Below, piece by piece: positions 3,383 through 42,560 of a stretch of 43,955 nt of DNA (position 1 is its first letter; every line of letters starts with the position of its first letter). Source of the DNA: Salinivirgaceae bacterium (GTDB lineage: Bacteria; Bacteroidota; Bacteroidia; Bacteroidales; SZUA-534). Location: positions 1-43,955 of the forward strand of contig JAFYYA010000062.1 in NCBI GenBank assembly GCA_017557785.1. Direction: 5' to 3'. A program made the translations under genes and the position numbers. The notes below the pieces were generated by a model. That model was given only the letters and a program-made list of their open reading frames with translations, was not told the origin of the DNA and did not search any database.

Positions 3383-3457
3383 AATTCAATATATCAGCGA
3401 ATTATGCTTTGCGCAAGAAAAGCCAAACTTCTGAACTCTAAACTTCTAAACTTTTAA

Positions 3458-3814
3458 ATGGAATTTAAAGAGCAAAAAGGCATATTTCAGCAGATTGCCG
3501 ACCGCATTTGCGACCGCATATTGCAGGGCGAGTTGAAGGCGGGCGGCAAACTGGAGTCGGTGCGCGAACTGGCGGTGGCCATTGGTGTGAACCAAAACAC
3601 CATTATGCGCACCTACAGCGAGTTGCTGCGCGACGGCATTTTGAGCAACCAACGCGGCATTGGGTTCTTTGTTGCGCCCGAAGCCCGCGACATAATCCTG
3701 GCCAAACGCCGCAACGAGTTCTTTAACAACGATTTGCCATACATTGCCCGTCAGGCGCGGCTGCTCGGCATTTCGGCAGAGGAGATTATTGAGAAATTGA
3801 AAATTGAAAAATGA
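3458..3814 (+). CDS. GntR-family transcriptional regulator, YtrA subfamily
   Basis: This 118-residue DNA-binding protein has a winged helix-turn-helix over residues 1-75: GIFQQIADRICDRILQGEL, then KLESVRELAVAIGVNQNTIMR and a wing at GILSNQRGIGFFV. The C-terminal part is only ~40 residues of helix, which is the hallmark of the YtrA branch; larger GntR branches carry a 150-residue effector domain. YtrA-type regulators typically repress adjacent ABC-transporter operons, which fits the five permease-like genes directly upstream. Here the regulator is last in the series, whereas it is more often first. The ATG at 3458 follows an A/T-rich leader made of AAACTTCT-like repeats. Confidence 0.88.
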   Translation: MEFKEQKGIFQQIADRICDRILQGELKAGGKLESVRELAVAIGVNQNTIMRTYSELLRDGILSNQRGIGFFVAPEARDIILAKRRNEFFNNDLPYIARQARLLGISAEEIIEKLKIEK

Positions 3815-6281: not shown

Positions 6282-6287
6282 TCAGGA

Positions 6288-6371
6288 ATTTAGAAATTAG
6301 AAGTTAGGATTTAGGATTGCGGTAGGGACGCACCGAGTGCGTCCGTTGTCTGTGGTCTGAAGTCTGAAGTC
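6288..6371. repeat. Two adjoining heptanucleotide tracts with a hairpin between them
   Basis: 6288-6318 is a 7-bp-phased NNTTAGR tract (ATTTAGA, AATTAGA, AGTTAGG, ATTTAGG). 6341-6371 is a GTCYGNN tract (GTCCGTT, GTCTGTG, GTCTGAA, GTCTGAA, GTC). Between them, at 6326-6343, the pair GGACGCAC / GTGCGTCC forms a perfect 8-bp stem that could act as the purA terminator, though it lacks a following T-run. The same order of the two heptad families recurs at 37542-37608. Confidence 0.75.
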
Positions 6372-7701: not shown

Positions 7702-7810
7702 GACTAAAGACAACGGACATCAGACCACAGACAGAAACTTATGCCTTTTGCCTTATGCCTTTTCAACTAATAACTTACAACTTGTACCTTGTAACTAATA
7801 ACTTATAACT
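7702..7810. repeat. Heptanucleotide tracts of three families in the paaK leader
   Basis: 7702-7732 is the GTCYGNN family on the minus strand (plus-strand units TAAAGAC, AACGGAC, ATCAGAC, CACAGAC). 7742-7762 holds TGCCTTT, TGCCTTA, TGCCTTT. 7765-7810 holds six AACTWRT-like heptads (AACTAAT, AACTTAC, AACTTGT, ACCTTGT, AACTAAT, AACTTAT). All keep a 7-bp phase even though the sequences differ. The run ends ten bases before the paaK start codon. Confidence 0.8.
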
Positions 7811-24282: not shown

Positions 24283-24570
24283 ATGACAAAAGCAGAGTTA
24301 GTAAACGAAATCTCGAAGAACACCGGGATTGAGAAAGTGACAGCGTTGAAGGCAGTTGAGGCTTTCATGGACAGCGTTAAGGCATCTTTGGTTAAAGGTG
24401 ACAATGTTTACTTGAGAGGTTTTGGTACCTTCGCTATTAAGAAGAGAGCAAAGAAGACCGCTCGTAACATCACAAAGAACACAACTATCGTTGTTCCAGA
24501 GCATTACATTCCTTCGTTCAAACCGACTTCAGAGTTCGTTGACAAGGTAAAAGCAAACGTTAAGAAGTAA
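24283..24570 (+). CDS. hup: HU-family DNA-binding protein
   Basis: A 95-residue nucleoid protein. The helical dimerisation part (MTKAELVNEISKNTGIEKVTALKAVEAFMDSVKASLVKGDNVYLRGFGTF) and the beta-arm (KKRAKKTARNITKNTTIVVPEHYIPSFKPT) are complete. The Pro at the arm tip that intercalates between bases in most HU/IHF proteins is replaced by the NITKN turn. The product bends and compacts DNA as a dimer. It has its own promoter and a strong terminator, so it is monocistronic. A 316-bp gap follows before the first microprotein ORF. Confidence 0.96.
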   Translation: MTKAELVNEISKNTGIEKVTALKAVEAFMDSVKASLVKGDNVYLRGFGTFAIKKRAKKTARNITKNTTIVVPEHYIPSFKPTSEFVDKVKANVKK

Positions 24571-24619: not shown

Positions 24620-24705
24620 GCCCATAAGACAAAAATCCGCGTTTTTGCCCTAAAAAACGCTCAAAAATAACCCGTTTTTACCCCCATTTTGGCCTTTTTC
24701 GTTTG

Positions 24706-24777
24706 CCGTTCGTTAAGTCAAACCCGCCGTTCGTTTGTAAAACACTACCGTTCGTTAAGTCAAACCCGCCGTTCGTT
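24706..24777 (+). promoter_or_regulatory. Four LytTR-like sites phased at 21 bp
   Basis: The 9-mer CCGTTCGTT occurs at exactly 24706, 24727, 24748 and 24769, a constant 21-bp step, so all four lie on one face of the helix. The larger unit is a 31-bp block repeated at 24706 and 24748. Read with the preceding base, site 3 is ACCGTTCGT, a full match to the published LytTR half-site [TA][AC][CA]GTTN[AG][TG]. The other three have G at the first position. A 9-bp site plus a 12-bp spacer is the arrangement LytTR response regulators bind. No LytTR gene is in the window. The likely targets are the two microprotein ORFs and the giant secreted protein downstream. Confidence 0.65.
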
Positions 24778-24781
24778 TTTC

Positions 24782-24846
24782 GGCTATTGCATTTTGTAAT
24801 AGCCATGCAGACCTTTGGAATGCCTTATAATACAATGTTAAAGGCA
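24782..24846 (+). promoter_or_regulatory. Two inverted repeats between the LytTR-like array and the first small ORF
   Basis: GGCTATT (24782-24788) pairs with AATAGCC (24798-24804), and TGCCTT (24821-24826) pairs with AAGGCA (24841-24846). Either could be an operator or a leader RNA hairpin. I found no good TAnnTTTG box here; TATAAT at 24826-24831 lies in the second loop, but this is not the usual Bacteroidota promoter sequence. Confidence 0.45.
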
Positions 24847-24886
24847 TAAATTATCTAATAGGGAACAACTCTAAAAACATACAACT

Positions 24887-25006
24887 ATGATTATCGCGAC
24901 ATTGATGATTCTGTTTATGGCCATTCACACACGTTTGGCAATCAAAGTATCGGACAACGGACAAATTGAGTGCAGTCAGTTGCAGCATGATGCATTAACC
25001 TGTTAA
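24887..25006 (+). CDS. Possible 39-residue membrane microprotein
   Basis: An ATG with an A-rich, SD-less leader (AACATACAACT) opens a 39-codon frame. It begins with a hydrophobic helix (MIIATLMILFMAIHTRLAI) followed by a polar tail with two cysteines (QIECSQLQHDALTC). I know no family. The placement after a four-site operator array and only 10 bp before a second tiny ORF suggests a real dicistron, but coding potential in 39 codons is weak evidence. Confidence 0.4.
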   Translation: MIIATLMILFMAIHTRLAIKVSDNGQIECSQLQHDALTC

Positions 25007-25016
25007 ACCTTTGGTC

Positions 25017-25097
25017 ATGAAACGTTTCGAAAGATTATTCATCGGGGCACTGCTGCTTATTATTGTTGTCTGCTGCATTCTGACGTGCATGATGTAA
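25017..25097 (+). CDS. Possible 26-residue hydrophobic microprotein
   Basis: A 26-codon frame: MKRFERLFIGALLLIIVVCC, then ILTCMM. It has a basic N-terminus and one hydrophobic helix with a CC pair and a further Cys. The VVCC and LTC segments loosely resemble a lipobox, so it could be a membrane peptide or a very short lipopeptide. It resembles in style, but not clearly in sequence, the tiny 'smalltalk' proteins often found near HU genes in Bacteroidales. The giant T9SS gene starts 67 bp downstream. Confidence 0.45.
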   Translation: MKRFERLFIGALLLIIVVCCILTCMM

Positions 25098-25164: not shown

Positions 25165-28100
25165 ATGAGAAGAAGATTTCTACTTGTTCTTTCGGCCTTA
25201 ATCCTAACGGTAGGGGGGCTGAGTGCTCAGAGCCACGGAAAACATGCTCTGAAGAGAGAAAACCCGCGGGCTAAAGCCGCCCAGGAGTGGGTTGAGAAAA
25301 TGAAAGCCGACAACGGCAAGTCAGCAACGTCTTTATTTAAGACAGAAAGCGCGGCCAAGGATGGCCCGCAAGACTTCATGGTTAGCGTTGTGCCTAAGGA
25401 GCCGGTTATTGAGTTCAACTTGAGCGATTGCGACCAGACGCAAGCCCGCCCGATGGTTGTTAAAAACACTACCGACGAACCCCTTGATGTTGTTATTCTT
25501 TCCAGTGCCACTACTTTTAATTTAGGGCGTAAGGTGCTGGATGATATGATCTGGGGTATGTCGATTATTGACGGCTATGTCTATGGCTACAGCGATAATT
25601 ATGGGGAAACTGTCCAAATAGACCTTGCCACAGGAGAAGTGGTAAAAACCATTAAAGGGTTTGACTATGTTGCTAGCGCCGGCGGCAAGATGTGGGCTTC
25701 CGGCATATGGAACGACAATAAAGGATTCACCGTTGCCGCTCTCGATGAGAATATGAACTTGACGGATTTCAGTTTTGAGACATCAGTGCGCTATCCGTTT
25801 ATTGCAGCCGATGGCGATAACCTTTTAGTTTACGGCTGTGTTGGCAATAAATTTTGTGCCTTGTCTTACAACACCAGCGGCGAATTGGTGGCCGACTATG
25901 GCACTATCGATATGCCGAGTACTGAACTTGTAGCCTATAATCCCGCTACACGCACATTCTGGTTTGGTGCCTGCGTTATGGGAATGTCGATGGGAGTCCA
26001 AATCAACAACGGCAAACTCGAAGTAAGCGATATTGCGCCAAGCGAAACTGAATCTGGCATGACATGTTACGCGGTTTTCGACGAGAACGGAAAGCCATAT
26101 TACTATAGTGTTGATTATTCACTTGGCTACTATAATCCGGGCGTATACGAAGGAGAATCACTGCTTTTTGGCAAAGCTATTACATTCTCGCAAAACAAAC
26201 TGAGCTTGCAACCCGGCCAGCAGACAACCGTCAACATTACGGCCAACACAGCTGCTGGCTCAGCTGAAGTTTATATCGGTGCCATTAATCCCAAATTGTT
26301 CTTGGATGAAGGTCCGGAATCAATGCTATTCTCGCGTGAAATTGCAATTAATGTTGACATCACCCCTAAGTATGAAATTTATGGTGACAGCGTTCTCACA
26401 GCTTACACCGGTTACGAAAGCACTGGCATAATTTGGATTAAAAACACTGGCTGCCAGAATATGCCAATTTTTGAAGCACCACACTTCAAAACAAGCGGCA
26501 CGGGGTTCCGGATTCTTCCAAGAGATGATGCTCTTATCGTGCCCAGCGATTTTTATAATGATTACACACTTTACCCTGGTGATTCGTTAGGTGTAATGAT
26601 TGGTTTCTATACCGAGAATACTGGCTCTTTCACCAACAAATTCGGTTTCCCTATCGGCAAACCAAGTGATTATTTTGTTGCCGAAGTTGACCTTAAAGCC
26701 ACAGCCACCGATTTGGCAGAGCAGCTTTCAATCGCCAGCACAGAGATTGACACCACACTCACCGAGTGCGTAACAACACTTACCGTTCCCAACAAGATTG
26801 AGAACAACACCAGTGTGCCGGTTACAGTTGTGGGTGGTTTTGACTTTACTTTCAATGTTATTACAAAATGGGACCCGGGATATCAAGTTTGGACACTGTA
26901 CGACGCCAATGACAATGTGGTTTACTCAGCGCCTAGTGGCACTTACACACAGTCTAACACCACATATACAGGAACTCTCAACCTGCCAGTAGGCTCGTAC
27001 AGATTATATTTGCAGAACTGGTGGTACAACGGTTTCATGAGCATAGGCAACTCTGAGACAACATTGGTCAGCAATACCACCAGTAGGGGCGGAAAAACAA
27101 TTGAATTTGATGTTACCCCGGACGATTGTTTGTTTAAGACCACCATTGCCCCTGACTCAAGTATCGATGCCTTACAGATTCCTGTAAGCGTACTCAATAT
27201 GCACGGAGATAACACTCTTCTCGTCTATGCTGAAGGCATTGATGGGGCTGTTAATGAAATTGAGTTAGCTGTTGACGGCGGCAAAGCTGAACTGGCAGTC
27301 GTTGAGAGCTTTGATTTTGGCAATCAGATAAAGAACAATGATGCAAGGAAAACACTGACTCTTTTCAACAGCGGTTGCGCAACGCTCAATATCGAACAAA
27401 TCAGATTTAAGAATTTGGGTTATTTCGCCTTATTATATGGAGGTAATGTTTATCCTGCTATCGGTGAAATTGAGATAGAGCCAAACGCGTCAAAGGAAAT
27501 AACACTTGGAGTTTACCCAGACTCTGTTGGACCCTTCGCAGATACGCTGATCATCAAACTTTCGGCCACTGATTCGGTTGAAGTGGCCATATCTGCAACA
27601 GGTGTTGGCGCACCCGAAACAGTATTCGATGATTATGTTGTAAAAGATACTATTAACTACGGCACACAGTCAGTTACCTTGAGTTCTATGGTTCATAACG
27701 ATGGCAACGGCGACCTTGTGATTGCTGAGCCATTAAGCTTTAGTTACAATGCCGGAAGCGGAAAACATGGTGTCTACATCGACACTTATCATGCAAAATC
27801 TGGTAGTTGGTGGGGCCCCGACGAATGGTTGACTTCCAATTTTGATTTTGATTACTATGATATGGCCCCTGGCGAATACGAACTTCGTTTATATTTAGGG
27901 GACGAAGATGTTTCTGACAGCGACGCATATATCAGCATAAGCAGCGGCAATGACACCATTGTCAATAAAATAATGGTGAAAGATATCTGCACATGGGACA
28001 ATTATGATGATGGCGATTATGCTTACAAATTCACCATAACCGAAGATTCGTACAAGAAATATACCGTTGCCCCAGGCGACTCGCTGCCACTTACAATGAA

Positions 28101-30732
28101 CATAGCAACAGCCGACCTGCCGGTTGGTAGCCATTATTTCTATAAGTACTTCTCTACCAACGACTCGGAATGGGACAATGAAATGGAAATGGATGCTCAA
28201 ATTCTTGTCAAAGGCGATACTGCTGTTTCAGTACCTGAAACACTTGCATTTGGCAATGTTCAGTTGGGCTCAGTTGGAAAGCAGACATTTACACTTACCA
28301 ACACCGGTGGAGCAGAGTTTGAACTTGATTATAGAATTAGTGGCACTGGCTTTTCGTTTGTGAATGCTTCAGCAGATGTGTTTGATTGGAAATTAACCCC
28401 AAAACAAGTAGTCGAACTTGAAGTTAACTATACACCTACAGCCGTAGGCGCAGCCACTGGCGAGCTTAAAATACTTGAATACAACAACGAGAAAGTGTTA
28501 GCCACCATTGCTCTCTCAGCCGCAGGCGTAGCTGCTGTTGAACCAGAGTATGATACCCTGCGCATAACAGCAGAGTGCGGCCAGACAGAGGTTAAGGCTA
28601 CACATACCATAACCAACAACAGCGAGGCACAGCTGCAGTATGTTCCCAAGCCACGACTCAGGGTGTACTCAGGTGCGCAGAACCACCCGCAAACTATTTG
28701 GTTGGAAATATATACAATAGATAAGTGGAACAATTTTGGAACCCGCATATTTAGTATACCGACAAACACTTACACGGTTAGTGGCAAAATGTATGAGCAG
28801 ATTCTCGATTTGCCAGCTGGAAATTATGGTGTGCGTTTCCGCGATTCGCAAAGTAACGGCTATAGCAACGGAGGCTATGTGTCGGTAGTAATCGACGATA
28901 AGTCAATCCTTAGAGACTATGAATACAACATATTGGATGCAGGCTACAATTATAGCAGTTACACCAATTATCTTTTTACAATTCCTGAAACTGAACCGAT
29001 TGTTGTTCCGGCCAATGGTAGCACGATAGTTGAGAACACCTACAGCCTTGAAGGCCTTACCGGTGGAGAATATATCTTTACCCGAATACTTGACCGTAGC
29101 AATATCGTGGACGATGAATTAATTTGCGACACGCTTGTAACCGTAGTTACCATTGAGAGCAAACTCGATTACGCTTACAGCAAGGATTCCGTTGAATTTT
29201 TGCCTGTTCATGTAGGCGAAAGCGGATATGCTTCGCTGTATCTCGAGAATACAGGATGCGAGGTTGTTGAAATTGACGGATGGGATATGCTTGACGGCAC
29301 AAACTTTAAAGCATCCTTTATGAGCAGAATGGGAGGATTGATTCTTAGCCCTGAAGATTTAATTTTGAAATCGGGCAAAAAAGTACCATTCTACATTTCC
29401 TTCAATGCAGACGAGGCTGGCACTTACCGCGATACTTTAGTGATAGTAACCACTCGTGGTATCGACAGAATTCCTGTTGTAGCCACAGCCAACACAACTC
29501 AGGTAATGGCCGTGAGCACACCTACTGTTAGTGGTAGCTATCGTACAGGTAACAACATTGTTATTAATATTTCGTTTGACGATGCAGTTGAACTTGATAA
29601 TACTGCAGCCACAGCAAAACCGAAACTGCTTATGAACACTGGCGGAAATGCCGTGCTTGAAGACGAAAGAATCGACGACTACACTCTGAGCTTTGTTTAC
29701 CCGGTTGCTGCTACTGACAACATTGCAAAACTTGCAATCACAGGCGTTGAGTGGAACGGCGTGAAAGTGCTTGATGCCACCACCGGAAGCCAAGTCAGTG
29801 TTGCCACACTGCCTGCTAACAATGAGTTTGCAGCAACTAATATTGCGCTCGACAACATTCTGCCGACAGTTGCAATAAGCACATCTGCTACCGAGACAAC
29901 CGCCGCTATAGCAACACTCACAGTTGCGTTCAGCGAGGAGATTACCGGTTTTGCGCAGAGCGACATTGCACTGAGCGAAGGTGCCGAAATCAGCAGCTTC
30001 ACCACAACCGACAACGCAACATTTGTTGCCGAGTTGAGCCTGCCGCACGCTGTTGTTACTAACATTAGTGTTGCCGCCAACGTTGCCGACTTGGCCGGAA
30101 ACCCACTTGCAGTGGCTTGGACTGGCAGCATTGCTTCGGTTCATGATTATGACACAACCATTTTCGAACCGACGTTCGACAGCATCGGCTACACCATGCT
30201 TATTTGCAAAATCTGTGGCGATACAACCTACGTCGATACTGTTCCTATGATTAAAGTTGTTTCGATTGCTTTGAGCAACATGCCGAAGAAACTCAATTAC
30301 ACTGAGGGCGAACTGATCGACTTGACTGGCGCGAAACTCACCGTAACCTTCAATAACGGAACTACCAAGGTGGTTGATTTGACATCGGCAATGATTAGCG
30401 GCTTTGACGCTAAGAAGACCGGCAAGCAGACCATCACTGTAACATATGTTGATGGTGGTGAGACATTTACAGTTACGTTCGATGTAACTATTGATGCAAA
30501 AGACACTGCAATCGATGAGAACGCTGCCGAAATAAACATTTTTGCTATCAACCGCACTATTGTGGTCGAGACCGCTGATGCCTTTGCAGGCGAAATAGCA
30601 GTCTTTGACGTGAATGGTCGCATGGTCGCCAAAGAGTTAGCCGAAGGAACCCGCACTGAACTGTCAATGAAGAATACAGGCGTCTACATTGTACGTGTGG
30701 GTAATACAACACAGCGTGTAGTACTGTATTAG
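25165..30732 (+). CDS. Giant T9SS-secreted multidomain surface protein
   Basis: An 1855-residue exported protein. A Sec signal (MRRRFLLVLSALILTVGGLSA, then Q) is followed by a beta-propeller-like region (~95-330). Hydin/ASPM-like 'choice-of-anchor' beta domains lie near 710-815, 1020-1125 and 1330-1440. Three related beta modules lie near 570-640, 866-925 and 1172-1245, each with a 'LPxGxYxxRxxx' core such as LNLPVGSYRLYLQ and LDLPAGNYGVRFR. A bacterial Ig-like pair covers ~1447-1650, an insertion LICKICGDT with a CxxC follows near 1678, and a Big-type Ig domain sits at ~1697-1775. The last ~70 residues (IAVFDVNGRMVAKELAEG...GVYIVRVGN) are a type A T9SS sorting domain, so the protein crosses the outer membrane by T9SS and is processed by a PorU-type sortase; one such gene lies at 37704. 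The ligand or role is unknown. Confidence 0.88.
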   Translation: MRRRFLLVLSALILTVGGLSAQSHGKHALKRENPRAKAAQEWVEKMKADNGKSATSLFKTESAAKDGPQDFMVSVVPKEPVIEFNLSDCDQTQARPMVVKNTTDEPLDVVILSSATTFNLGRKVLDDMIWGMSIIDGYVYGYSDNYGETVQIDLATGEVVKTIKGFDYVASAGGKMWASGIWNDNKGFTVAALDENMNLTDFSFETSVRYPFIAADGDNLLVYGCVGNKFCALSYNTSGELVADYGTIDMPSTELVAYNPATRTFWFGACVMGMSMGVQINNGKLEVSDIAPSETESGMTCYAVFDENGKPYYYSVDYSLGYYNPGVYEGESLLFGKAITFSQNKLSLQPGQQTTVNITANTAAGSAEVYIGAINPKLFLDEGPESMLFSREIAINVDITPKYEIYGDSVLTAYTGYESTGIIWIKNTGCQNMPIFEAPHFKTSGTGFRILPRDDALIVPSDFYNDYTLYPGDSLGVMIGFYTENTGSFTNKFGFPIGKPSDYFVAEVDLKATATDLAEQLSIASTEIDTTLTECVTTLTVPNKIENNTSVPVTVVGGFDFTFNVITKWDPGYQVWTLYDANDNVVYSAPSGTYTQSNTTYTGTLNLPVGSYRLYLQNWWYNGFMSIGNSETTLVSNTTSRGGKTIEFDVTPDDCLFKTTIAPDSSIDALQIPVSVLNMHGDNTLLVYAEGIDGAVNEIELAVDGGKAELAVVESFDFGNQIKNNDARKTLTLFNSGCATLNIEQIRFKNLGYFALLYGGNVYPAIGEIEIEPNASKEITLGVYPDSVGPFADTLIIKLSATDSVEVAISATGVGAPETVFDDYVVKDTINYGTQSVTLSSMVHNDGNGDLVIAEPLSFSYNAGSGKHGVYIDTYHAKSGSWWGPDEWLTSNFDFDYYDMAPGEYELRLYLGDEDVSDSDAYISISSGNDTIVNKIMVKDICTWDNYDDGDYAYKFTITEDSYKKYTVAPGDSLPLTMNIATADLPVGSHYFYKYFSTNDSEWDNEMEMDAQILVKGDTAVSVPETLAFGNVQLGSVGKQTFTLTNTGGAEFELDYRISGTGFSFVNASADVFDWKLTPKQVVELEVNYTPTAVGAATGELKILEYNNEKVLATIALSAAGVAAVEPEYDTLRITAECGQTEVKATHTITNNSEAQLQYVPKPRLRVYSGAQNHPQTIWLEIYTIDKWNNFGTRIFSIPTNTYTVSGKMYEQILDLPAGNYGVRFRDSQSNGYSNGGYVSVVIDDKSILRDYEYNILDAGYNYSSYTNYLFTIPETEPIVVPANGSTIVENTYSLEGLTGGEYIFTRILDRSNIVDDELICDTLVTVVTIESKLDYAYSKDSVEFLPVHVGESGYASLYLENTGCEVVEIDGWDMLDGTNFKASFMSRMGGLILSPEDLILKSGKKVPFYISFNADEAGTYRDTLVIVTTRGIDRIPVVATANTTQVMAVSTPTVSGSYRTGNNIVINISFDDAVELDNTAATAKPKLLMNTGGNAVLEDERIDDYTLSFVYPVAATDNIAKLAITGVEWNGVKVLDATTGSQVSVATLPANNEFAATNIALDNILPTVAISTSATETTAAIATLTVAFSEEITGFAQSDIALSEGAEISSFTTTDNATFVAELSLPHAVVTNISVAANVADLAGNPLAVAWTGSIASVHDYDTTIFEPTFDSIGYTMLICKICGDTTYVDTVPMIKVVSIALSNMPKKLNYTEGELIDLTGAKLTVTFNNGTTKVVDLTSAMISGFDAKKTGKQTITVTYVDGGETFTVTFDVTIDAKDTAIDENAAEINIFAINRTIVVETADAFAGEIAVFDVNGRMVAKELAEGTRTELSMKNTGVYIVRVGNTTQRVVLY

Positions 30733-30740
30733 CCTAATGA

Positions 30741-30780
30741 AAACAGGGGCATTTTATAATGTCTCTGTTTTCTTTTTTTT
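30741..30780 (+). terminator. Rho-independent terminator of the giant secreted protein gene
   Basis: AAACAGGGGCATT (30741-30753) pairs, with mismatches in the middle, to AATGTCTCTGTTT (30758-30770). A T-rich tract to 30780 follows. Confidence 0.85.
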
Positions 30781-30887
30781 ATTGAGAATGTGGATGCTGA
30801 AATCCGCTTAAGATATACGCTGTCAAAGAAAAGTAAGCGTAATTTTTCTCATGCTGGTCCGGGGCGGAAGCCCCGGGCTTTTTTTTT
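30781..30887 (+). other. Orphan structured segment ending in a second strong terminator
   Basis: The pair CCGGGGC (30859-30865) / GCCCCGG (30870-30876) with a GGAA tetraloop and nine T residues (30879-30887) is a textbook terminator, yet no gene ends before it. The preceding ~75 bp carry a nested fold: GAGAA (30784-30788) / TTCTC (30846-30850) enclosing CGCTTA (30805-30810) / TAAGCG (30834-30839). A small RNA of ~100 nt or a 3'-UTR-derived RNA is possible. Confidence 0.5.
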
Positions 30888-37541: not shown

Positions 37542-37608
37542 AGTTAGGATGTAGGAATTAGGAGTTAGGAATTAAGAGTTCTCTGTCTGTTGTCCGAAGT
37601 CTGTTGTC
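37542..37608. repeat. Paired heptanucleotide tracts upstream of the sortase gene
   Basis: 37542-37576 is an NNTTAGG tract (AGTTAGG, ATGTAGG, AATTAGG, AGTTAGG, AATTAAG). 37578-37608 is a GTCYGNN tract (GTCTGTT, GTCCGAA, GTCTGTT). The order and orientation repeat what is seen at 6288-6371. Confidence 0.78.
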
Positions 37609-37672
37609 ATTCAATTCACGCACTCAATTCTTCAATCAGTCAAAAAACATCGCACGGACATTGCCAAATGCT

Positions 37673-37680
37673 TAAATTTG
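37673..37680 (+). promoter_or_regulatory. Probable -7 box of the sortase gene
   Basis: TAAATTTG fits TAnnTTTG and lies 23 bp before the preferred ATG at 37704. No convincing -33 TTG sits ~20 bp upstream, so this is a partial match. Confidence 0.45.
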
Positions 37681-37703
37681 TTTGTTTTTATGGTGTTTGT
37701 CTG

Positions 37704-40700
37704 ATGAGGCAATTTTTCGGCATATTATTTTTTGCGATGGCAGTGATGGCTGCCGTTAATGCTGATGCCCAACAATTTACAAACGATTGGATTGATTTCG
37801 GTCAGGATTATTATCGGCTGGCCATTCCGCAGACGGGCGTTTATCGCGTCAGCCGCAGCCAACTTGAGGCTGCAGGCGTGCCTGTTGGCAGTTTCAATCC
37901 GCAGAACATCCAACTTTTTCAGAACGGAAAGCCGATTGCGTGCCGCGTTGGCAGCGAGCATCAGGGACTGCTCGATTATATTGAGTTTTTTGCTGAAGGC
38001 AACAACGGATGGTTCGATTTGGAAATGTACGACAAACCTGAAAATCAGACAAATCCGCACTACAGTCTGATAACAGACACTGCTGCGGTTTTTCTGACCT
38101 GGAACAAGCGTTTCGACAATTTGCGTCATTTGGAATGCAGTTCGCAAGGTGCTGAGAATCACGATGCTGCGGCATATTGCATCATCGATACCGTGTGTCA
38201 GTACACGGCCACCTATTTGGGCGGCGAAGAGAATTGCGAGTACACTGATGCTGAGGGATGGTTTGATGGGTCGGCGGTGTCGTTGGGCAAGCAGTTGGCC
38301 AAATCGGTGCCTACATCAAAAGTATTTGCCGACGGTGGCCTGAAAGCACGCATCACTCTTGCGCTGGCCACATACTCATCGAACGGCCACCACATCACGG
38401 TGACGGGGCCGGGCGTGAGCATCGATACCATTTTCTATGGTCTGCGCACCATAAAATGCCAAACCGCTACTGATGCTTCCAATTTGTTGGTACAGAATAA
38501 GTTCACTTTCGCAAGCGTTGACGACATCGAGGCTAAAACCGATTACTCGCGAGTGTCGTTCATCGAGATCGAGTACCCGTCGGCGTTCGATTTCAAAGGT
38601 CGCAGTCAGCAGATTTTCTGTCTGCCGCCGGCCGATGCCGATTTGAGCATTGCCATCACCAATATGGAATTGACGCAAGATGCTGTTTTGTACGATGTTA
38701 CACGTGGTTTGCACATCGGGCTGAATGTCTCGGACGGTGAGGCTACCGCGCTCGTTCCGGCACATGGCGACACGGTGCGGCTTGTGGTGGCTCAAGGCAA
38801 GGCTTTGCGCAAAGTGGGCGGCATCACACACTCGCCGTTCGTCAACTATGCGGTGAATGGCAAACAGGTGTTGATTCTGTCGCAGACGACATTGATGGAC
38901 AAGGCTCGCGAATATGCCGATTATCGCAACGCCTATTTGGTTGACGTTGAAGAACTTTACAATCAGTTCGGCTATGGTATCCGCAAGCACCCGATGGCCA
39001 TAAGACATTTTATTGAGTATGCCGTGGCCACGTGGAAGGTGAGGCCGCAGTATCTTTTTATTATTGGTAAAGGCGTGAGTGCCAACGATATGCGTAAAAA
39101 TGCAACTGCTTATGCCAACTGTCTTGTGCCGCCGATGGGCGTTCCGGCTTCCGATGCCCTGCTTTCGGCTCATGTGGACGGTTCGGGCACGGCGCCGCTG
39201 CTTGCCACGGGCCGTTTGTCGGCTTTGCGCGCGGCCGACATCGATAATTATCTGAACAAGGTGAAGGCCTTTGAACGGAATCAGCAGAGCGAGTGGATGA
39301 AGCGCGTGCTTCACTTTGTGGGCGGCAAAACACAGGCAGAGCAAACCGAAATCAAAAGGTATATGGCTGAATATAAGCGCATTATTGAAGATGCCCTTTT
39401 CGGTGCAAGCGTGACATCGTTCTACAAATCGACATCGGACCCGATAGCAACATCGAAAAACGATAGCGTTAAAATGCTCATAAACAGCGGTGTAAGCCTG
39501 ATGACATTCTTCGGGCACGGTTCGGGATACGGTGGTTTCGACCAAGACATCGACTCGCCGTCGTTTTACGACAACGAAGGCCGCTATCCGCTCATCATTT
39601 CCAACTCATGCTACACGGGCAACATCTACGGCTCATGGCAGTCGTCGGTGAGCGAGGAATGGGTGCTGGCGCAGAAGAAGGGCGCCATCGGCCTGATTGC
39701 CATGGTGAACGAAGGCGTGCCGTATTACCTGAATATGTTCTCGTCGCGATTCTACCGCCATATTGCCAACACATCGTACGCTGAACCGATTGGCAGGGCA
39801 ATGCGGTTGGCGCAGGTGGCGATGTCGGGTAGCACCAACCGCCTGACCAACGGAACCATTCAGCAGATGGTTTTGCACGGCGACCCCTGTATTGTGCTGA
39901 ATAGTTCGAAAAAGCCTGATTTGCAATTGAATCCGTCCGATGTCTGGTTCTCGCCGGCGGTGCTCACTACGGCCGTCGATTCGTTTACGGTGAACGTGGC
40001 GCTGCGTAACGTTGGACGCGCCATTACCACCGATTTCGTTGTTGAACTGCTTCATACTCAACCCGATGGAAACACGGCTCTTTATGCGCAACAGGTTGCC
40101 CGACTAACTTTTAGAGACACGCTTCGTTTCCGCCTGCCGATGAACCGAATTGATGCGGCAGGTGCTAACCAATTCAGTATCAGCCTTGATGCGATGGAAC
40201 AGATTGCCGAGCTCAACGAAGATAACAATGCCGTGACGGTGTCAGCTTTTGTGCAGTCGGTTGATGTGACGCCCGTCTGGCCCTATAATTACGCTCTTGT
40301 CAGCAATGTGCCGTCGGTGCTCAAGGCTTCGACATCAGATGCGGTGACAGCAGCGCAAGCAAGTGTTTTCCAAATAGATACCACAGAACGGCTCGGCAGT
40401 GGCCGGTTCTTGTCGGAACGGCTTGAGCATGGCGGCGGGGTGGTGGAATGGCATCCGGCAACGGCCATCGACACAGGGCAGGTCTATTTCTGGCGTGCGA
40501 AGAGCGATGCTGCCGACGATTTCAGCAACATCAGCTCATTTATTGCCCACGATGGAATGACTGGGTGGGAACAGTCTGATTTTGAGCAGATTGACGACGA
40601 TGATTTCGCCCACATCAAAGCCGATGCGGGCAGCCGCTCATTCAGTTTCACCAATGCCGCGCGAACGCTGCGCTGCCGCAATATCGGCTCGCCCAATTCA

Positions 40701-42560
40701 AGCAATTTCATGAAAATCAGTTTTGAGATGGATGGCTACAGCGCGCAGTCGTCGTGTGGTGCGGTCAATGCATTGCTGATGGTGGTCATCGACTCGTTCA
40801 ATCTTGTACCGTGGCAGTCTGACCGCGGGCGTTACGGTCATTCCAACTATCCACATTGTTCGTCGGCACCCTATGAGCTGTATTACATCTTCTATTTGAA
40901 CAATCTCGATGCGGGGCTCGACTCGCTTATCAATATGGTTGAAAATCAGGTGCCAAAAGGCAACTATATAATGATTTACTCGTTTATTTCGGGGCGGTTC
41001 CAACAGTGGCCTGAACGGGCTTACTGCGCGTTTGAGCGTTGGGGCGCGGCGCAGATTCGCACCGTTAATAGCTCGGTACCTTACATCTTCTTCACTCACA
41101 AGGGCTATCCCGATGAGTCAGAAGAAGTTATCGGCAAATCGGCAACCGATGTCATCGATTTTCACCGAACGCTCTACAACAACTATAATTTCGGCACCAT
41201 AACAAGCCCGGCAATAGGTCCGGCGCAACGTTGGACTGGGCTTGAGTGGCAGAGCGACACCGTAGCGGCCGGAAGTGAGGCTTTTGTGAGAGTGCTGGGC
41301 GTTGAGTCGGATGGCACCGCCCGCGTGCTGAAGGATTCGGTAGCAAGCCCATCGGCCGATTTGACCGGTATTGACGCCAACCGATATAGTAGGCTCAAAC
41401 TGCAGTTCTTCAGTCGCAACGATTCGCTTTATGTCCCGTCGCAACTGCGGATGTGGCGGGTTCTCTACACACCGTACACCGATTTGGCGGTAAACCCGTC
41501 GCGAGGCTGGCTTTTCCGGTCCGACACTCTGCATGAGGGTGAGCAGGCCATGGCTGTGGTGGCTTGCGAGAACATCGGTCAGCAGCAGTCGGACAGCGTG
41601 CTGGTGCACTATTGGCTGCAAACGGCCACCAACCGCATTGTTGAGATTGGCTACAAGCGGCTGAAGGCTTTGCTGCCGGGTGAATATGTACTTGATACTG
41701 TGATGTTTGAAACAATCGGGCTCGATGATGAAAACGTCTTTTTTGCCGAACTGAACCCCAAGCCCGTCGGCTCGGCCTACTACGACCAAATGGAACTGAC
41801 GCACTTCAACAATTTCATACAGAAACAGTTCAGTGTTGTGCGCGACAATGGCAATCCGCTGCTCGATGTGACTTTCGACGGCCGGCATATCCGCGACGGC
41901 GACATTGTGTCGGCGCAGCCGGTGATTGCTGTCACCGTGGCCGACGCCAATCGTTTCATGACCATCACCGATGTTGATGCTGTGGCGCTCTATCTGACGC
42001 CGATGGCCACTGGCGTTGAGAGCCGAATTGATTTGGCGGGCAACCCCGATGTGACTTTCGTACCTGGAACGCTGGCCAACAACCGAGCTGTGCTTGAGCT
42101 CGAGATGCCATTCGCGACGGGCACCTATCAGTTGCGCGTCCGTGCCCACGATGCGTCGGGCAACGAGTCGGGTGCCGATGACTACATCATATCGTTCCGT
42201 GTGATTGCAGAAAACACAGTGTCAGATGTTTATGCGTTCCCGAATCCGTTCAGCGCATCAACGCGTTTCGGTTTTGAGCTCACTGGCACTCTGCTTCCCG
42301 ACGAGTTGCGAATCGACATCTACAACCCGATGGGAAAGATTGTCAAAACCATCACTATGGCTGACTTTGGCGGGCTGCACTTCGGCTTGAACATGTCGTC
42401 GGTGTGGAACGGAACCGGCGCAAATGGCGCGTTTTTGCCTGCCGGCGTCTATTTCTATAAAGTGCGCATCAGTTACGACGGTGTCGAATTCCCAACCCGC
42501 AATTCCAACGGACGCAGTTCGCTTGTCAATGGCGTCGGAAGATTGGTGATTGTGAGATAG
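37704..42560 (+). CDS. T9SS C-terminal signal peptidase, PorU/PorU2-like (C25 family)
   Basis: A 1618-residue secreted cysteine protease. The signal MRQFFGILFFAMAVMAAVNA, then DAQQ, supports the ATG at 37704; the frame is open back to 37590 but that leader is not signal-like. After the N-terminal beta domain (DWIDFGQDYYRLAIPQTGVY) comes the C25 catalytic domain with the His in FFGHGSGYGG and the Cys in ISNSCYTGN. Long beta-rich domains follow, including a CARDB-like segment (VNVALRNVGRAITTDFVVEL), and the C-terminus is FlgD-like (VYAFPNPFSASTRF, PAGVYFYKVR). PorU cuts T9SS sorting domains and attaches cargo to A-LPS at the cell surface. The protein is longer than Porphyromonas PorU (about 1160 residues) and fits the larger group often named PorU2. 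The protein at 25165 is a candidate substrate. Confidence 0.88.
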   Translation: MRQFFGILFFAMAVMAAVNADAQQFTNDWIDFGQDYYRLAIPQTGVYRVSRSQLEAAGVPVGSFNPQNIQLFQNGKPIACRVGSEHQGLLDYIEFFAEGNNGWFDLEMYDKPENQTNPHYSLITDTAAVFLTWNKRFDNLRHLECSSQGAENHDAAAYCIIDTVCQYTATYLGGEENCEYTDAEGWFDGSAVSLGKQLAKSVPTSKVFADGGLKARITLALATYSSNGHHITVTGPGVSIDTIFYGLRTIKCQTATDASNLLVQNKFTFASVDDIEAKTDYSRVSFIEIEYPSAFDFKGRSQQIFCLPPADADLSIAITNMELTQDAVLYDVTRGLHIGLNVSDGEATALVPAHGDTVRLVVAQGKALRKVGGITHSPFVNYAVNGKQVLILSQTTLMDKAREYADYRNAYLVDVEELYNQFGYGIRKHPMAIRHFIEYAVATWKVRPQYLFIIGKGVSANDMRKNATAYANCLVPPMGVPASDALLSAHVDGSGTAPLLATGRLSALRAADIDNYLNKVKAFERNQQSEWMKRVLHFVGGKTQAEQTEIKRYMAEYKRIIEDALFGASVTSFYKSTSDPIATSKNDSVKMLINSGVSLMTFFGHGSGYGGFDQDIDSPSFYDNEGRYPLIISNSCYTGNIYGSWQSSVSEEWVLAQKKGAIGLIAMVNEGVPYYLNMFSSRFYRHIANTSYAEPIGRAMRLAQVAMSGSTNRLTNGTIQQMVLHGDPCIVLNSSKKPDLQLNPSDVWFSPAVLTTAVDSFTVNVALRNVGRAITTDFVVELLHTQPDGNTALYAQQVARLTFRDTLRFRLPMNRIDAAGANQFSISLDAMEQIAELNEDNNAVTVSAFVQSVDVTPVWPYNYALVSNVPSVLKASTSDAVTAAQASVFQIDTTERLGSGRFLSERLEHGGGVVEWHPATAIDTGQVYFWRAKSDAADDFSNISSFIAHDGMTGWEQSDFEQIDDDDFAHIKADAGSRSFSFTNAARTLRCRNIGSPNSSNFMKISFEMDGYSAQSSCGAVNALLMVVIDSFNLVPWQSDRGRYGHSNYPHCSSAPYELYYIFYLNNLDAGLDSLINMVENQVPKGNYIMIYSFISGRFQQWPERAYCAFERWGAAQIRTVNSSVPYIFFTHKGYPDESEEVIGKSATDVIDFHRTLYNNYNFGTITSPAIGPAQRWTGLEWQSDTVAAGSEAFVRVLGVESDGTARVLKDSVASPSADLTGIDANRYSRLKLQFFSRNDSLYVPSQLRMWRVLYTPYTDLAVNPSRGWLFRSDTLHEGEQAMAVVACENIGQQQSDSVLVHYWLQTATNRIVEIGYKRLKALLPGEYVLDTVMFETIGLDDENVFFAELNPKPVGSAYYDQMELTHFNNFIQKQFSVVRDNGNPLLDVTFDGRHIRDGDIVSAQPVIAVTVADANRFMTITDVDAVALYLTPMATGVESRIDLAGNPDVTFVPGTLANNRAVLELEMPFATGTYQLRVRAHDASGNESGADDYIISFRVIAENTVSDVYAFPNPFSASTRFGFELTGTLLPDELRIDIYNPMGKIVKTITMADFGGLHFGLNMSSVWNGTGANGAFLPAGVYFYKVRISYDGVEFPTRNSNGRSSLVNGVGRLVIVR

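Follow-up and report, generated by a model that had tools for sequence, protein, structure and literature searches.

A phased four-site array in a Salinivirgaceae genome is one copy of a genus-wide promoter cassette, probably of LytTR type

What kind of regulator, if any, reads four identical 9-bp words that stand at exact 21-bp steps ahead of two very short open reading frames (ORFs) and the gene for a giant secreted protein? The array lies in contig JAFYYA010000062.1 of a Salinivirgaceae bacterium (Bacteroidota; assembly GCA_017557785.1), whose positions 1 to 43,955 on the forward strand form the window analysed here. A sequence-only reading of this stretch had proposed binding sites for a LytTR regulator. 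Our analysis supports that proposal: the array is one copy of a promoter cassette found throughout the genus, and it very probably forms the activator-binding region of a LytTR-type promoter driving microprotein genes, often together with a giant protein exported by the type IX secretion system (T9SS). The array and its phasing, its conservation, its genomic association with LytTR genes and the gene content of the loci were observed directly and carry this reading.

Exact copies of CCGTTCGTT begin at 24706, 24727, 24748 and 24769, the four same-face positions given by the sequence-only reading; they are the only mismatch-free copies in the window, and each step between neighbours is exactly 21 bp. 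With one mismatch allowed, the window holds 15 matches against 11.7 expected, which is background, so the signal is the exact, phased array. The LytTR consensus is [TA][AC][CA]GTTN[AG][TG]; the third copy, ACCGTTCGT, fits it fully, as had been said of one site, and the other three carry G at position 1. Spacers 1 and 3 are identical. Conserved spacers and a promoter in fixed phase behind the array were both absent from the earlier reading. The features in and around the array are as follows.

24283-24570, plus strand: gene for an HU-type DNA-binding protein, the upstream neighbour, outside the cassette
24661-24705, plus strand: stretch rich in A/T tracts, abutting the array upstream and like the sequence before many arrays of the genus (these 45 nucleotides (nt) were judged by eye)
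24706-24714, plus strand: site 1, CCGTTCGTT, with G before it
24727-24735, plus strand: site 2, CCGTTCGTT, with G before it
24748-24756, plus strand: site 3, CCGTTCGTT, with A before it; the copy with the full consensus fit
24769-24777, plus strand: site 4, CCGTTCGTT, promoter-proximal
24715-24768, plus strand: region with the three 12-nt spacers, type A (AAGTCAAACCCG), type B (TGTAAAACACTA) and type A
24787-24789, plus strand: TTG, the putative -33 element, separated by 10 nt from the end of the shifted 9-mer [AG]CCGTTCGT upstream
24810-24817, plus strand: GACCTTTG, proposed -7 element; its TTTG ends 40 nt past site 4

The array is not confined to this locus. The window's own genome (G000; 3.0 Mb in 153 contigs, 94% complete, 7% contaminated) carries the spaced unit at three further places, on contigs C34, C61 and C151. 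The pair pattern gave 11 matches in the whole genome at a 12-nt spacer, the same 11 when spacers of 3 to 23 nt were allowed, and none when reversed; with three mismatches there were 13 matches and 8 for the control, so the strict pattern alone is clean. Among 99 genomes, CCGTTYRTT-N12-CCGTTYRTT occurs in 12: all 11 of the genus, none of nine from other genera of the family, and one of 79 from the order. The reversed pattern was found in none of the 11 genus genomes and twice in the other 88. Matches in the sole order genome (G057) were rejected as unrelated repeats: a long tandem repeat present on two contigs, plus an isolated pair. The genus genomes are Salinivirgaceae or Bacteroidetes metagenome-assembled genomes (MAGs), mostly from ruminant stomachs. 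The expectation that 21-bp pairs would recur at other promoters is thus borne out.

The first pattern yielded 42 array loci in the genus, and two further loci in G004, two-site arrays with variant sites that this pattern missed, bring the number to 44. With up to two mismatches per site, the 42 arrays hold 149 sites; four sites are found in 30 arrays, two in 9, three in 2 and five in 1. All six arrays found in G005 have two sites and make up six of the nine of that kind.

Behind the arrays lies a promoter at a nearly constant distance, counted after arrays had been extended over degenerate sites. In 37 of the 42 loci TTG ends 12 nt after the last CCGTTYRTT, which equals 10 nt between [AG]CCGTTYRT and TTG. 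TTTG ends at nucleotide 40 after the last site in 37 loci; two others have it at 39 or 41 and two at 50, and in one it lies past the range counted. Since the loci are related by descent, they were reduced to 13 promoter cores less than 60% alike; TTG is exact in nine of these and TTTG in nine, at a TTTG background of 0.007 per position. A single site with a correctly spaced promoter has 38 matches in the 11 genus genomes, 37 of them at arrays, and two in the reversed control, both in G006. The remaining match (G002:C41), the one candidate for a single-site promoter, has no second site and reads as chance. An orthologous-looking array in three species (L028 4298-4390, L070 and L085) has its TTTG box displaced by 10 or 21 nt; it precedes a YfiR-like gene and a TonB-plug protein, with no giant protein. 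Kinase genes (L131 2261, L132 2055, L133 4566) also hold single in-frame CCGTTYRTT words by a PFVENA-like or PFIENA-like motif (judged by eye), a trap for single-site genome scans.

This layout is familiar from LytTR promoters. In the portions of the published accounts available, LytTR regulators bind direct-repeat sites of 8-13 bp about 12 bp apart, with spacing crucial (PMC4064291), and the operons of LytTR regulatory systems (LRS) show a strong bias of the repeats to 10 bp upstream of the -35 box (PMC6193735). In site length, in the 12 bp between sites and in the 10 bp that separate the last site from the upstream promoter box, the arrays match this geometry.

The same position could serve a different end. 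It is quite unlikely that a LytTR repressor reads the sites, or that they insulate the upstream HU gene, with no activation: a place beside the -33 element would fit activation or repression alike, and AlgR is reported, in the accessible part of the source, to repress rhlI via a site (PMC4064291), but the sites do not overlap the promoter boxes and end 10 nt before the -33 box, a distance common, in the published excerpts, in autoactivated LytTR operons.

Which protein would bind? The presence of LytTR genes, on which the proposal depended, is plain: seven are found in G000, 5-10 in each genus genome (n = 11), and they occur in every tested genome of other genera. Our survey recovered 95 LytTR proteins in 94 of 95 fetched loci. 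At three genus arrays such a gene adjoins the cassette, with the array pointing away from it: those at G001:C109 and G006:C12 stand head-to-head with an operon of a TPR kinase and a LytTR protein, and the one at G009:C73 with a lone LytTR gene, all three of the orthogroup of the G000:C31 protein. This orthogroup is present in 11 of 11 genus genomes (G000-G009 and G010) and duplicated in G002, G008 and G009. Of the seven groups represented in G000 it shows the lowest identity (63% at worst), and its best match reaches at most 48% identity in 29 genomes of other genera vs at least 66% in each genus genome. Two kinases of the group were scanned and contain TPR repeats and a His_kinase domain. The likeliest regulator is the fast-evolving REC-LytTR protein G000:C31:35497-36246, with a TPR-repeat histidine kinase as partner. 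Adjoining genes at three of 42 arrays are few, and the G001 and G006 cases are probably one inherited case, so this assignment is a lead. The LytTR groups of L003, L005 and L006 may be further candidates; those of L001, L002 and L004 were set aside, each being without a member in at least one genus genome (assemblies are incomplete, and G010 was partly fetched). Two G000 LytTR proteins look membrane-bound by eye. With the LytTR domain as query, phmmer found one weak match (3d6w, E 0.3) among solved structures.

Similar architecture also occurs beside LytTR genes elsewhere. A scan of 84,980 genomes for two sites with a spaced promoter and any spacer, in which records of the window's own or very near genomes may be left out, returned 38 stretches, 31 from the genus and 7 from elsewhere. 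A profile built from five seeds of our own finds a LytTR gene within the 8-kb locus in five of these seven: Bacteroidales F22, two Lewinella-type genomes, a Kapabacteria MAG and a Bacteroidales MAG. In Bacteroidales F22 and the two Lewinella-type genomes the array heads a two-gene operon of a kinase-like gene (by eye) followed by the LytTR gene; in one of the three (L200) the longest frame overlaps the array match. In the Kapabacteria MAG the array stands just behind the LytTR gene. LytTR genes number 145 in about 71 Mb, a density of about 2 per Mb, at which 1-2% of 8-kb loci would be expected to hold one; LytTR-rich genomes would lift this figure. Published architecture (as far as the sources extend), LytTR genes beside that architecture in other genera and head-to-head LytTR genes at three genus arrays together sustain the LytTR proposal.

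Several observations weigh against it. The small number of adjoining LytTR genes has been noted; in the 313 kb of array stretches fetched, most of it downstream, a profile picked up a single LytTR gene, the one in G009. The 42 loci share spacers and flanks and are thus related by descent, so their counts are not independent. Outside the genus, the match in the Bacteroidales MAG (L214) lies inside a kinase-like ORF near the LytTR gene and may be chance; in L209 the match is inside an ORF, and L215, with no LytTR gene nearby, has it ahead of an ORF of 600 aa whose start looks signal-like. The LytTR proteins beside out-of-genus arrays differ by eye from the favoured one at the C-terminal end. The -7 box of the cassette lacks the TA of TAnnTTTG, the motif described for a Bacteroides sigma factor. 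In G000, three of 45 T9SS-tail matches stand behind an array, so the arrays would control a small, special set. Finally, site pairs are not enriched in a scan of 395 genomes of the phylum: outside the genus there are 28 at spacers of 3-23 nt and about 64 for the reversed pattern, a result that rejects a phylum-wide excess, and none of these 28 short loci has a LytTR gene. Three of the 28, in G272, G340 and G462, are at 12 nt, with about 1.3 expected. The arrays are therefore a genus trait with scattered parallels and no general Bacteroidota motif. One 12-nt pair (G462) was discarded as part of a coding repeat. Another genome, from a different class of the phylum (G340:C44; L307, oriented 2159-2230), has a real-looking array of three ACCGTT-type sites at 21-bp steps, then TATTG, upstream of a secreted protein with a signal-like start; no LytTR gene lies in the 5.1 kb fetched.

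A 21-bp step would also suit a regulator of another family. It results when AraC-type half-sites of about 17 bp are separated by gaps of 4 bp, and the spacers, in which bases 6-7 are AA in 107 of 107 cases in the genus and AAGTCAAACCCG dominates, look like a second contact box. Binding by an AraC-type regulator, for example a hybrid two-component system, is nevertheless very unlikely: type-B spacers shift the A-tract by one base while the sites stay in place, in other genera the architecture has LytTR genes beside it (no AraC profile was run there), and the sites match those of AlgR and the LytTR promoter distances in the published text available.

Least probable is a reading of the array as a dispersed repeat of no regulatory role, duplicated along with the genes next to it: the nearest neighbour of a cassette lies in its own genome in 18 of 42 cases (shuffled mean 3.8, maximum 15), and array traits seen nowhere else recur within genomes, namely the six two-site arrays of G005 and the variant sites shared by two loci of G004, but the TTG and TTTG positions are fixed in 9 of 13 cores though the bases between them diverge, the array is aimed at the next large gene in most loci, and similar architecture with unrelated spacers occurs at LytTR loci of other genera. 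Either of two processes would account for the within-genome likeness: duplication together with the genes behind the array, or homogenisation as the regulator changes. Repeats of other kinds are present as well: tandem repeats of 7-14 bp such as GAATTTA, apparently intergenic, at 1-61, 3425-3458, 6286-6318, 7738-7810 and 37544-37580 of the window, and AATGATTA-like repeats in the leaders behind several arrays.

The genes behind the array bear on what the LytTR-type promoter would control. In the window the following features stand downstream of site 4.

24782-24804, plus strand: stem-loop over the promoter, gone in the G007 orthologue
24821-24846, plus strand: second stem-loop, within the putative 5' leader, retained in part by the G007 orthologue
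24887-25006, plus strand: microprotein MII, 39 aa, conserved family
25017-25097, plus strand: microprotein CC, 26 aa from ATG, conserved hydrophobic family
25165-30732, plus strand: secreted protein of 1855 aa with Ig-like/ASH domains and a T9SS type A sorting tail

The two short ORFs that had been noticed ahead of the giant one are thus members of conserved families. A third family, KVK (35-45 aa; its KVK and KLANLKLTTY segments are near-invariant), was not found in the window but stands ahead of MII and CC at other arrays (L061, L064, L065, L067, L076, L083, L091, L094, L098, L306 and L312). Among the 44 loci, KVK occurs in 11, MII in 18, CC in 24 and at least one family in 28, counts in which a few fetched stretches end too early to tell; the order KVK, MII, CC holds in all 19 loci with two or more. 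A ten-sequence CC profile gave 25 strong matches (E <= 3e-10) in 60 genomes, all in the genus, and nine weak partial matches (E at least 0.018) in the 49 non-genus genomes. All 25 have an array upstream on their own strand, two apparent exceptions proving to be the variant-array loci of G004. Because the ten seeds were taken from array loci, the independent part is the other 15 of the 25; with an earlier profile of four seeds, 18 of the 22 matches below E 0.01 were independent in this sense. Without correction, pN/pS is 0.23 for KVK, 0.66 for MII and 0.40 for CC (12 CC sequences), with synonymous sites near saturation; on these values KVK and CC look to be under purifying selection, MII less clearly. 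None of the representatives searched from the three families matched Pfam or NCBIfam. The microproteins are possibly membrane peptides aiding export or anchoring of the giant protein, or peptide signals.

The giant T9SS protein of the sequence-only reading is also confirmed; its C-terminal sorting domain scores 33.9 bits against TIGR04183 (cut-off 23). For 33 of the 42 arrays an ORF of 500 aa or more begins within 1.5 kb; several of the other nine are cut by contig or fetch ends. A T9SS type A tail (E <= 0.01) is found in 12 of the 21 large proteins with a fetched end, ten of them above the cut-off. Of the remaining nine, four have a similar tail by eye and one has no match; one is an acyl-CoA dehydratase activase, and three are TonB-plug proteins standing behind the YfiR-like gene, assigned by Pfam for one and by eye for its two orthologues. 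Three of the four G000 arrays precede T9SS-tail genes, one below the family cut-off. A second giant ORF in the window (37590-42560) has a T9SS-tail match (G000:C37:42237-42470) and no array found before it.

Homologues of the window's giant protein over much of its length stand behind arrays of G001, G003, G006, G007 and G000:C151. At the orthologous locus of G007, the HU gene, array, both microproteins and activase gene are kept (87-93% DNA identity) but no giant gene is present: the two loci differ cleanly by its 5.6 kb (window 25166-30828, L090 about 1581-1587). Here the microproteins form the core nearest the promoter, and the surface gene is the variable part.

The hairpins reported behind the array have fared less well. 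Two stem-loops do fold there (24778-24860, z -3.4), but a role for them is unsupported: in the G007 orthologue, the only other locus folded (z -1.6), the first is lost and the second is reduced to a 5-bp stem with a long loop. Terminator and RNA-switch functions were rejected on this basis, and the first stem-loop is probably incidental.

On the LytTR reading, a signal would pass through the TPR kinase to the LytTR regulator; four LytTR domains, from two phosphorylated dimers, would then fill one face of the DNA at 21-bp steps, perhaps cooperatively. The last domain, beside the -33 element, would touch the polymerase, and the primary Bacteroidota sigma factor would be recruited to the fixed TTG and TTTG boxes, so that the weak -7 box fires. 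The promoter would drive a small microprotein operon and, in many loci, a co-transcribed gene for a giant T9SS-exported surface protein. This configuration suggests a shared signal-controlled programme for cell-surface change. Rather unlikely, as a bolder version, is a Bacteroidota peptide-signalling module in which LytTR and the TPR-type kinase would sense a microprotein product (KVK being the best candidate), feed back on up to six arrays per genome and switch on giant T9SS surface proteins together at high density or on contact.

The genus offers a ready regulon for such questions, with a four-site promoter, one species in which all six arrays found have two sites, and three microprotein families tied to the promoter; G007 adds a natural locus with array and microproteins but without the giant gene. 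Cooperative LytTR control and the control of giant surface proteins in gut bacteria become directly testable. In the open-access literature we found no paper joining LytTR, Bacteroidetes, direct repeat and binding site, nothing on LytTR with tandem half-sites and nothing on Salinivirgaceae in the rumen; four papers do mention LytTR together with type IX secretion, and 11 mention LytTR and P. gingivalis.

Among known systems, AgrA, a LytTR regulator, controls small hydrophobic peptide genes in staphylococci; the cassette resembles it in placing a putative LytTR regulator ahead of such genes.

Sigma-ABfr promoters of Bacteroides have TAnnTTTG at -7 and TTG near -33 in the source text available (PMC7366714). 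The cassette shares TTTG at the -7 position and TTG near -33, and differs in having mostly GACN where TAnn is expected (GACC in the window); GACN instead of TAnn would fit an activator-dependent promoter.

AlgR sites in Pseudomonas aeruginosa are given as CCGTTCGTC, CCGTTTGTC and CCGTTCATC in the part of the account consulted (PMC4064291). The first is identical to CCGTTCGTT in eight of nine bases, and the C/T and G/A variants among these sites parallel the cassette variants except at the last base; the hosts and targets of the AlgR regulon are other ones. Closest in layout, as far as the published excerpts go, are LRS promoters of the HdrRM/BrsRM type, with 9-bp direct repeats, mostly a 12-bp spacer and often an end 10 bp before the -35 box. 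These have two repeats, sigma-70 boxes and a membrane inhibitor partner, whereas the cassette has mostly four repeats, boxes of Bacteroidota type and, as its likely regulator, a pair of TPR kinase and response regulator.
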